A DNA stretch of 64,000 bases, taken from an uncultured Bartonella sp. (GTDB lineage Bacteria; Pseudomonadota; Alphaproteobacteria; Rhizobiales; Rhizobiaceae). The position numbers and the translations under genes are program-made. Under the pieces are notes generated by a model. That model had not been told where the DNA came from. It made no database searches and worked only from the letters and a program-made list of their open reading frames with translations. Where the stretch lies: assembly GCF_945277285.1 (NCBI RefSeq), contig NZ_CALYPR010000001.1, positions 248,001 to 312,000 on the forward strand, written 5' to 3'. Below are positions 46,277 through 55,274 of this stretch, piece by piece; positions within the stretch are counted from its first letter, which is position 1, and every line of letters begins with the position of its first letter.

Positions 46277-46520
46277 CACAATAAATTCTAAATTTTATAA
46301 CATATTTTTATATTTTTTGTATTCTAAGAATTTTATTTATTGAACAATATTGTAAATTATTAACTTAAATATAGACATTATGATGTTTAAATTAATGATA
46401 TTTTTCCGCTGATGATCTTGCATCCTCTACATTATTTTTATATGTTTTTCTCATGGGTGTTTGGGAAGTTGTTCTCGGGCAGGTTTCAAGTTGGTCGGGC
46501 CGCCAACTCAGGGAACTTGC

Positions 46521-50895: not shown

Positions 50896-51876
<981 letters not shown>

Positions 51877-54027
51877 TTAAAGGCTACAGGAAACACAGGC
51901 TTCGACTTCCGTTCCACTCAGAGCCATTTGGCGCAAACGAACGTAATAAATGCTCTTGATTTTTTTCTTCCATGCGTAGATTTGCGCTTTATTGATGTCA
52001 CGCGTGGTGGCTGTATCAGGGAAAAATAGTGTCAACGACAACCCCTGGTCGACATGCTGACTTGCAGCTGCATAAGTGTCGATAATCTTTTCCGGCCCAA
52101 TTTCATAAGCATCCTGATAATAAGCCAGATTTTCGTTTGTCATATAAGGTGCAGGATAATAAACGCGGCCAATTTTTCCTTCCTTGCGAATCTCGATTTT
52201 TGCAACAATCGGGTGAATGGAAGCTGTTGCATTGTTAATGTAAGAAATTGACCCTGTTGGTGGAACAGCCTGTAAATTACGGTTATAAAGCCCATATTTT
52301 TCGACAGATTGTTTTAATGCTTGCCAATCTTCGACGGTCGGAAGTTTGAAATTGCGTTTTGCAAAAAGCTCTTGAACACGTTTCGTTTGTGGCGCCCAAC
52401 AACGGTCGATATATTTTTTAAAAAACCGGCCATCTGCATAGGCTGATTGCTTAAAGTCGGCGAATGCTTCGCCACGCTCTTTGGCAAGAAGATTGGAGCT
52501 TCGTAACGCATGGTAAGCTACCATATAAAAATAGATATTGGTGAAATCTATCGCTTCAGGTGAGCCATAATAGATGTGCTCACGCGCAAGGAAGCCGTGT
52601 AAATTCATTTGTCCAAGCCCGATCGCATGCGATTGATTATTACCTTTTTCAATAGAGGGAACAGAGGCGATGTCGGTCATTTCGGAAACAGCTGTCAGAG
52701 CACGTACCGCCAATTCAACGGTTTCACCAAAATTTGGCGAATTCATTGCTTTTGCGATGTTGAGGGAACCAAGATTACATGAAATATCGGTACCTACATG
52801 GCGGTAAGTTAAATCAGCGTTCAGAACACTAGGACTATTGACTTGAAGAATTTCGGAACAAAGATTGCTCATATTGATGCGGCCAGCAATCGGATTTTCC
52901 CGGTTTACCGTATCTTCAAAAACAATATAGGGATAACCTGATTCAAACTGGATTTCAGCTAGTGTCTGGAAAAATGTGCGGGCGCTGATTTTTTTCTTGG
53001 TTATGCGAGGATCATCAACAAACGCTCGGTAATGTTCGGTTAATGCGATGTCCGATAGAGGTTTACCAGTTACACGTTCAACATCATAAGGTGAAAAAAG
53101 ATACATATCTTCGTTATTCCTGGCTAGCTCGAAGGTAATGTCAGGAATAACAACGCCAAGAGACAAGGTTTTAATGCGTATTTTTTCATCGGCATTTTCA
53201 CGCTTTGTATCAAGAAAACGCATAATATCGGGATGATGGGCACTCAAATAAACCGCACCTGCTCCCTGTCGTGCCCCCAATTGGTTCGCATAGGAAAACG
53301 CATCTTCAAGTAGTTTCATGACCGGAACTACACCTGACGACTGGTGTTCGATATTTTTGATAGGTGCGCCCATTTCTCTGATGTTGGTAAGACACAAAGC
53401 TACCCCACCGCCGCGTTTGGACAATTGCAATGCCGAATTAATGGCCCGGCCAATCGATTCCATATTGTCTTCGACGCGCAAAAGAAAACATGAAACCAAT
53501 TCACCACGCTGTTTTTTGCCGGCGTTCAAAAAAGTCGGCGTAGCTGGCTGGAACCGGCCTGTCATTATCTCGTCAACTAGCTTCTGGCAAAACGTTTTGT
53601 CGCCCCGCGCAAGCGTGAGAGCAACCATGGCAACACGATCTTCAAAACGTTCAAGATAGCGTTTGCCATCAAAGGTTTTTAACGTATAGCTGGTATAATA
53701 TTTGAAAGCGCCTAAAAATGTCGGAAAGCGGAATTTAAAAGCATAGGCACGCTTAAAAACTGCTTTGATAAAATCAAAATCATAGCAATCAAGCACGGCT
53801 TTCTCATAATAATTTTCACGAATAAGAAAATCCAGTTTTTCTTTAAGATCGTGAAAAAAAACAGTGTTCTGATTGACGTGTTGCAAAAAATATTGGTGTG
53901 CAGCTTCTTTATCTTTATCAAATTGAATATGACCATTTTCATCATAAAGATTAATCATGGCGTTGAGCGCGTGATAATCAGCTTGTGTATTCATCACGCC
54001 GGTGTTTTTATTGATATTCGTTTCCAT
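51877..54027 (-). CDS. nrdE: Class Ib ribonucleotide reductase, alpha subunit
   Basis: NrdE is the catalytic subunit reducing NDPs. The 716-residue protein has [20 protein letters not shown] (an active-site Cys), [12 protein letters not shown] (a second), [12 protein letters not shown], and the C-terminal redox pair ACVSCSL. The ATP-cone of class Ia is absent, which fits class Ib. The start at 54027 has AGGAAAA before it and overlaps the nrdI end by 34 bases. An ATG at 53994 (TGATG overlap) is the alternative. Confidence 0.96.
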
Positions 54028-54407
54028 AATTTTCCTAATCCTTGTTTGACAAGGCGTATGTCTTCAACTGTGCCGCGAAGTTCAAAACTATAAAGCCACG
54101 GGACATGACATTTTTCTGAAACAACCTTTCCAGCAAGCGCATAAGCCCAACCGAAATTACGGTTGCCGCCAGCAATCACACCGCACAACCATCGGCGATT
54201 TTCTTCATCATTGAGAAATTCGATAGCCGTTTTCGGCACAGCTCCCTTTCCGGTCGCACCGGCGTAGGTTGGCACGACGAGCACAAATGGTTCGCGGACT
54301 TTTGGAAGGGGTGCGCGTTTAATGAGCCGAACCGTTTTTTCTCCCAAATGCTTGACAAAATAATGGGTATTTCCCGTCGCACTCGAATAATAGACAAGAA
54401 GTGCCAT
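53994..54407 (-). CDS. nrdI: NrdI flavodoxin-like protein
   Basis: NrdI is a flavodoxin that supplies the oxidant for assembling the manganese cofactor of NrdF. The 137-residue protein shows [20 protein letters not shown] (FMN phosphate loop) and [36 protein letters not shown] is the NrdI signature. It lies between nrdH (1-base gap) and nrdE (overlap). Its presence supports a manganese-loaded class Ib enzyme. Confidence 0.96.
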
Positions 54408-54408
54408 A

Positions 54409-54630
54409 TCAGCCGAGCCGATCTATCATATCAGGCCGAAAACCAGCCCAATGCATGTCATTTGCGACGACAACGGGCACCTGCCGGTACCCTAGACTTT
54501 CAACATAAGACAATGCGTCCGCGTCGGTTGAAATATCGACAATATTATAGGAAATATGCTTCTTTTCCATCGCCCGATAGGTGGCTTTGCATTGGACACA
54601 GCACGGTTTGCTGTAGATGGTAACAGTCAT
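54409..54630 (-). CDS. nrdH: NrdH glutaredoxin-like electron donor
   Basis: NrdH is the small redoxin that reduces NrdE, itself reduced by thioredoxin reductase. The 73-residue protein has the redox motif CCVQC near the start (YSKPCCVQCKATYRAM). It ends DMHWAGFRPDMIDRL, which matches the SGFRPDMI-type signature of the family. It is the first gene of nrdHIEF, and the long leader upstream carries the riboswitch. Confidence 0.95.
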   Translation of the reverse strand: MTVTIYSKPCCVQCKATYRAMEKKHISYNIVDISTDADALSYVESLGYRQVPVVVANDMHWAGFRPDMIDRLG

Positions 54631-54797
54631 GACTTTTCTTTCCGATAAGTAAAATAATTCCCGTCTCCACCTTTGATAAAAAGGTAAAGCACAAAGGACA
54701 AAATAGTTGGGTACCCGTCGTTTAATGACCGGCTATTAAAAAACTAGAAGAGATAGAAAGAACTGCTTGGCATAAAACTTCCTTCCCGAAGTTGGAC

Positions 54798-54909
54798 GAG
54801 GAAAAGCCGCAGCGAGCGGGTTGTTGCAAACAACCACACAAAGCCATGAGCCAGAACACCCCGTCTGTTGACATTTTTATTCAAGGCAGGTCTCCTGGCT
54901 CATGGCTTT
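54798..54909 (-). promoter_or_regulatory. Likely expression platform of the B12 riboswitch
   Basis: Downstream of the aptamer on the coding strand, AAAGCCATGAGCCAG (its first part lies in the aptamer's 3' core) pairs perfectly over 15 bp with CTGGCTCATGGCTTT. After that come a GGTTGTT-TGC-AACAACC hairpin and a CCGC-TCGCT-GCGG stem followed by CTTTTCC. Pairing of the 3' core with the downstream arm would exclude ligand-bound folding, so this is a plausible switch between a B12-bound and an unbound form. Which form is ON cannot be decided by reading alone. Confidence 0.55.
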
Positions 54910-55062
54910 TTGCGCTAAGGTCACCTTCCCGGAGAAAAAACTCCAGTGGTTTATCGACCATCACTAACCATTTACAGTTGCGGGGGCAGCTCCGGCTTTA
55001 GTTCATATCTGGACCGGATTCCCTCTTAGCTCTTTTACTCTATATCGAATCAAAGAGAACCT
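54885..55062 (-). ncRNA. Cobalamin (B12) riboswitch upstream of nrdHIEF
   Basis: On the coding strand the sequence shows the conserved blocks of the adenosylcobalamin aptamer in order: GGGAATCCGGT, the central GAGCTGCCCCCGCAACTGTA, CCACTGG, TCCGGGAAGG and the 3' core AGCCAGGAGACCTGCC. It ends about 255 bases before the nrdH start, so it lies in the nrdHIEF leader. In other bacteria such switches shut down the B12-independent reductase when B12 is plentiful, which implies a B12-dependent class II enzyme elsewhere. Confidence 0.92.
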
Positions 55063-55065
55063 TAA

Positions 55066-55081
55066 ACACTATATATAGTAT
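55066..55081 (-). promoter_or_regulatory. NrdR box at the nrdHIEF promoter
   Basis: ACACTATATATAGTAT is a near-perfect palindrome matching the NrdR-box consensus as I recall it (acaCwATATATwGtgt). It sits just upstream of the riboswitch, where the promoter should be. A weaker candidate partner lies near 55097-55112 (CAATATAAATTG core), about 31-32 bases away centre to centre, the spacing usual for NrdR pairs. Confidence 0.72.
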
Positions 55082-55274
55082 CTCTTGTAAAAGAAGCGTC
55101 AATATAAATTGCTGTCAAGTCGCTGATTTTTGCGTCCACGGGTGACAATTTATCACAGAGAAAAAACGTCACGGTTTTTTGACATTTAAAGGCGATTTTA
55201 TTATTTACCTTTTGGCTAAAAAAGGTGTAGCGCCTAAGTGATCAACAATGGGAGGGCAAAATCTGGAGACTAAA

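Follow-up and report, generated by a model that had tools for sequence, protein, structure and literature searches.

Predicted two-layer control of the class Ib ribonucleotide reductase operon nrdHIEF by NrdR and a cobalamin riboswitch in a Bartonella apis-clade bacterium that also encodes NrdJ

The class Ib ribonucleotide reductase NrdHIEF is B12 independent and oxygen dependent, and the class II reductase NrdJ depends on adenosylcobalamin. Streptomyces coelicolor possesses the class Ia operon nrdABS with a B12 riboswitch together with the class II gene nrdJ, with NrdR boxes on both nrdAB and nrdRJ (PMC4991794, citing Borovok 2006; PMC9110341). NrdR depends on a pair of boxes spaced by about three helical turns; each box half holds a conserved G:C pair that the protein contacts (PMC12051234, PMC9110341). 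In Mycobacterium tuberculosis, tandem NrdR sites of nrdF2 are located downstream of the transcription start, at +15.5 and +47.5, i.e., 32 bp apart (PMC4428469). Two further kinds of leader in this organism are pertinent: in the B12 riboswitches of ppe2 and metE, translated leader uORFs modulate the downstream gene (PMC11260477), while the Mbox riboswitch of pe20 controls a small conserved uORF, with Rho-dependent termination as the second event (PMC12810186). In the literature searched, no paper was found that places nrdHIEF behind such a riboswitch, an earlier prediction elsewhere being possible, and nrd goes unmentioned in the main text of a survey of riboswitches in 255 genomes.

The window, i.e., the whole 64-kb stretch of DNA that was analyzed, corresponds to positions 248001 to 312000 of contig C1 in a genome of 2.45 Mb (G000). 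Judged by NrdI, its closest named relatives are Bartonella apis, B. apihabitans, and B. choladocola, with 75-78% identity, and the source genome is a relative within the Bartonella apis clade. The minus strand, on which all features of this locus lie, carries nrdH-nrdI-nrdE-nrdF (54630-50896), and all four genes are intact with full-length family matches: the glutaredoxin-like redoxin nrdH (54409-54630; TIGR02194, 106.9 bits), the class Ib assembly flavoprotein nrdI (53994-54407; TIGR00333, 131.9 bits), the class Ib alpha subunit nrdE (51877-54027; TIGR04170, 1224 bits), and the class Ib beta subunit nrdF (50896-51864; TIGR04171, 475 bits). The presence of the four genes together and matches to the class Ib models above their cut-offs (NCBIfam) bear out the class Ib identity given in the preliminary description, which had also supposed that the same cell owns a class II enzyme. 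An nrdJ gene was indeed found in the genome; its 1,247-aa product matches PRK07562 (NCBIfam), a model of B12-dependent reductases, with 2344 bits. The search for nrdR that had been proposed likewise recovered the gene (TIGR00244, 172 bits; cut-off, 124.65).

The arrangement shares with that of S. coelicolor a B12-independent reductase behind a cobalamin riboswitch, an NrdJ in the same cell, and NrdR boxes, predicted ones in Bartonella, on both promoters. In Streptomyces the reductase is class Ia nrdAB and nrdR is in an operon with nrdJ, whereas the Bartonella enzyme is class Ib and its nrdR is a separate gene; the hosts are an actinobacterium and an alphaproteobacterium, respectively, and in Bartonella, unlike Streptomyces, the second NrdR box apparently lies within the aptamer, with a uORF after it. 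We consider it highly probable from sequence and gene content that nrdHIEF is a backup for NrdJ and is under two-layer control by NrdR and the cobalamin riboswitch.

The aptamer occupies positions 54868 to 55079 in the nrdHIEF leader. By cmscan it matches the cobalamin model RF00174 of Rfam with 130.9 bits (E value of 1.2e-32), far above the gathering score of 31.5, and the match spans the full model (1-189) without truncation. Two outcomes that the preliminary description had named as refuting, a covariance-model score under threshold and a genome devoid of nrdJ, are both contradicted. The two aptamer blocks noticed in the preliminary description, CCGCAACTGTA and AGCCAGGAGACCTGCC, are present where it had placed them and belong to the blocks that are invariant in eight relatives, and a cobalamin riboswitch precedes nrdH in 7/7 related Bartonella loci. 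An L5-L13 kissing loop is predicted, by complementarity only, between the CCCC of the L5 loop (CTGCCCCCGCAACTG; 54975-54989), situated in a 20-nt invariant block, and the GGGG loop of the P13 hairpin (CAGACGGGGTGTTCTG; 54852-54867), situated in a 25-nt invariant block. By its sequence, the nrdHIEF leader would bind AdoCbl, and the switch would act in the off direction.

Downstream of the aptamer, the leader contains an anti-aptamer strand, CTGGCTCATGGCTTT (54840-54854), that is a perfect 15-nt complement of aptamer positions 54909-54895. Since the ligand-free minimum-energy fold pairs this strand with the 3' core of the aptamer, aptamer and anti-aptamer are predicted to be mutually exclusive. 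Further along lies a 17-nt block, CTTCGGGAAGGAAGTTT (54775-54791), that is invariant in 8/8 leaders in a region where just 20% of positions are invariant among the eight; it carries a predicted uORF ribosome-binding site in a small hairpin. The uORF itself (54744-54773), MPSSSFYLF-stop with 9 codons in the window, is found at the same place in all eight leaders with 9-11 codons, and the ribosome site, a short spacer, the ATG, and an in-frame stop are conserved in each. The peptide varies, being MSKILNHFS and similar in the B. apis relatives and 11 codons long in one leader (L014). The uORF stop falls 106-112 nt before nrdH, which has its own ribosome site, preceded by a conserved hairpin region (54658-54701) with pairs changed on both sides according to RNAalifold. 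A single weak terminator-like hairpin near 54805 was considered as an intrinsic terminator and was not adopted because it is not conserved in the aligned relatives.

A first truncation scheme for the openness of the uORF ribosome site gave no consistent switch or sign, and a scheme was used instead in which the P13 stem is forced and its loop made unavailable, as a model of the kissing loop. With P13 forced, the openness of the uORF ribosome site fell below that of the free fold in all eight leaders, the change being small (for example, 0.43 to 0.24 in the window and 0.39 to 0.36 in L014), and CCUUUCCG paired with CGGGAAGG in the six B. apis-type sequences. The modeling suggests, as a lead rather than a demonstration, that the B12-bound state hides the uORF ribosome site. 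The switch may accordingly act through the conserved uORF, the likely outcome of the folding model being an off-switch via the uORF, perhaps with Rho.

The pe20 Mbox of M. tuberculosis is by analogy a plausible model for this leader, with the differences that its aptamer senses magnesium, whereas that of nrdHIEF is of the cobalamin class, and that the Rho step in Bartonella is a proposal. With ppe2 and metE of M. tuberculosis the Bartonella operon has in common a cobalamin riboswitch with a short leader ORF, predicted in the case of Bartonella. The ppe2 uORF, however, acts by termination-reinitiation and overlaps with the gene that follows; with the Bartonella stop so far ahead of nrdH, direct coupling between uORF and nrdH is unlikely.

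A competitor to control through the uORF, to which we assign somewhat less than an even chance, is direct control of nrdH translation or termination by the riboswitch, the 17-nt block and the short ORF then being an untranslated structural element of the platform. The peptide is not conserved between the window genome, L014, and the others, and the 17-nt block can form its small hairpin on its own, both of which are in keeping with a purely structural role. Against this reading, every leader has kept a ribosome site, spacer, ATG, and stop after 9-11 codons, and nrdH has a separate ribosome site that follows after another 106-112 nt or so, beyond the conserved hairpin.

Returning to the two-layer reading, we examined the nrdH promoter for its first layer. 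The predicted -35 element, TTGACG (55097-55102), is part of a 9-nt block, ATATTGACG, that is invariant across the apis clade, and the hexamer is conserved also in riboswitch-less Bartonella, with one exception carrying TTGCACG. A spacer of 16 bp separates it from the predicted -10 element TACTAT (55075-55080), which is assigned from sequence and spacing, and nrdH transcription is predicted to start at about 55066-55068. The palindromic NrdR box that had been reported beside the aptamer was recovered at 55066-55081. This box 1, ATACTATATATAGTGT (i.e., ACACTATATATAGTAT), agrees at 15/16 positions with the consensus used for scoring, ACACWATATATWGTGT; it is the sole site scoring at least 13 in the 64-kb window, and its core, ACWMTATATAKWGT, has one exact match in the whole 2.45-Mb genome. 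Box 1 contains the predicted -10 element and is conserved in every relative examined.

The nrdH leaders of NrdJ-less Bartonella (L061-L068 and L073) have no riboswitch; the promoter and the NrdR palindrome are conserved, and the leader is still about 500 nt long. There, box 1 lies some 520 bp ahead of nrdH as a perfect or almost perfect palindrome, with the -35 element in front of the box, and a search of these leaders for a degenerate cobalamin aptamer gave no trace at E values up to 5.

The preliminary description had further claimed a weaker partner box 31-32 bases away, and this holds in part. A partner is present 31 bp downstream of box 1, ATTCGATATAGAGTAA (55035-55050), with 10/16 agreement and both the contact C and the contact G in place; a partner of this quality would arise by chance, 31-33 bp to one side of box 1 or the other, with a probability of about 0.007-0.009. 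The upstream match, GCAATTTATATTGACG, at about 31-33 bp, has one of the two contact G:C positions at any spacing and contains the -35 TTGACG (55102-55097); it was rejected as the main candidate on account of its single contact position and because the -35 element explains it. The partner box more likely resides downstream, inside the aptamer, than upstream. Box 2 sits in the P2 loop, an insert that is dispensable for the aptamer, and its GATTCG is invariant in 8/8 leaders, where it always stands equally far from box 1. In the relatives, agreement with the consensus falls to 6-8 of 16 positions and the contact G is missing in 2/8 leaders, with both contacts present in L015, L016, L018, L019, and L020 and not in L014 or L017. 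We regard box 2 as a probable NrdR site in the window genome and as an uncertain one across the clade, since the rest of the box is weak in relatives. That an operator box should fall within the transcribed leader would not be unusual, given the tandem sites of class Ib nrdH and nrdF2 in M. tuberculosis (PMC4428469); for those promoters, no description places a riboswitch between the NrdR sites and the gene.

At the nrdJ promoter the two-box architecture is clear, with tandem NrdR boxes ACTCTATATTTAGTAT and ACACATAATATAGAGT 32 bp apart. Comparable pairs were found at the nrdJ promoters of four relatives (G012, G003, G008, and G006), and the second box is degraded in G007. Within the 130.8 kb searched, predicted two-box pairs with both contacts occurred at the nrdH and nrdJ promoters only, and 20 sets of simulated sequence contained none.

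Could the riboswitch be real and control nrdHIEF with no action of NrdR at all, box 1 being conserved merely for the -10 element and the start site? We judge this unlikely. It would draw on the overlap of box 1 with the predicted -10 and on the weakness of the partner in most relatives, NrdR requiring two boxes (PMC12051234). Against it, the palindrome is conserved beyond the -10 hexamer on both sides and is perfect or near-perfect in Bartonella that have no riboswitch; in addition, nrdR is present, nrdJ has two good boxes, and the downstream partner at 31 bp in the window genome carries both contacts, a match seldom expected by chance.

The distribution of these elements was next compared in 37 Bartonella genomes. 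The genomes that have cobalamin riboswitches are exactly the eight whose NrdJ scores above threshold (G000, G003, G006, G007, G008, G012, G017, and G020), and 0/29 genomes with NrdE only have one; the six genomes that encode both enzymes all carry a riboswitch immediately ahead of nrdHIEF. CobN follows the same split exactly in 23 genomes of the genus. This co-occurrence is strong evidence for the logic of the control and weak as a count, because few independent gains or losses in few lineages underlie it. In G006 and G008, NrdJ is the sole reductase match and NrdE is absent, so these bacteria would be wholly B12 dependent if they have no other reductase. In another family of the order, a genome with nrdE and no NrdJ (G041; L069) has a cobalamin riboswitch just downstream of its nrd operon; it was rejected as an nrd control element, as it belongs to an intact metE instead.

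The cobalamin riboswitches of the window genome form a coherent B12 regulon, as judged from the genes behind them. Besides that of nrdHIEF, they precede a metE remnant and btuFCD, and a subthreshold match precedes a cbtBA-like pair; metE was matched to its family, and the names btuFCD and cbtBA are our reading of the ORFs. The search for cobalamin synthesis and uptake genes suggested in the preliminary description was thus productive on both counts, with CobN encoded in addition to btuFCD. Because CobN is encoded, the B12 status of the cell probably depends on cobalt and synthesis in addition to uptake. MetH is also encoded, and metH and cobN are intact. The metE gene (C2:363597-365884 of G000; about 8597-10900 of L021) is broken, with three separate matches and several in-frame stops, behind a strong riboswitch of 125.2 bits; the riboswitch-metE pair is intact in G012 and G017, and metE is missing from several other relatives. 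The btuFCD riboswitch is separated from btuF by an ORF of about 80-165 aa that opens right after P13 (about 7705-7070 of L022, minus strand; also L041, L047, and L051). It enters the BtuF reading frame in L047 and elsewhere stops before btuF, and it looks like another riboswitch-proximal leader ORF. A different RNA motif, nhaA-I (RF03057, 51.6 bits), is found in the window at 46455-46508 on the plus strand, directly before a putative NhaA-type Na+/H+ antiporter ORF (to 47870) whose longest possible start it overlaps.

The broken metE behind a sister riboswitch, the genomes that lack NrdE, and the intact cobN might suggest that the nrdHIEF riboswitch is a relic in a cell that makes B12 and keeps a decaying operon permanently off, but this is more doubtful still than a promoter free of NrdR, as all four nrdHIEF genes are intact and the region ahead of them keeps strongly conserved blocks in aptamer, promoter, and uORF.

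Altogether, we propose the following model of the two-layer control. In the first layer, NrdR loaded with dATP would bind box 1, over the -10 element and the start site, and probably box 2, so that nrdHIEF would be repressed when dNTPs are ample; nrdJ would be repressed in parallel via its own tandem boxes. In the second layer, every nrdHIEF transcript that is started would begin with the cobalamin aptamer. Binding of B12 would lead to the L5-L13 kissing loop and to a fold of the downstream leader that turns nrdHIEF off. With no B12, the 3' core of the aptamer would pair with the anti-aptamer strand and the G-tract of L13 with a C-tract, leaving the uORF ribosome site more open and nrdHIEF on. 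That the choice of reductase depends on B12, the central proposal of the preliminary description, is supported by sequence and gene content, and the regulation itself we infer. Within this model, the finer arrangement is offered tentatively, at a little under even probability, namely, that the NrdR operator is interleaved with the aptamer, box 2 being P2-loop DNA, and that the regulated translation start is that of the uORF and not that of nrdH. An interleaved operator and aptamer together with a uORF was not found for any ribonucleotide reductase operon in the literature searched.

This kind of control is known from Streptomyces; what is new here is the group of bacteria and the class Ib operon, and possibly a variant of the expression platform. 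If the finer arrangement is true, a stretch of about 340 bp would integrate the B12 signal with the dNTP signal, with a repressor, an aptamer, and uORF translation, perhaps with Rho, acting in series, and the uORF and overlapping operator provide concrete, easily tested predictions. B12-dependent choice of reductase would thereby be extended to a class Ib operon in insect-associated Alphaproteobacteria. The genus presents two states, in which bee-type lineages have NrdJ, B12 synthesis, and the switch, and NrdJ-less lineages are without all three and have retained the NrdR box, so that a clean comparison can show whether switch and isozyme go together.
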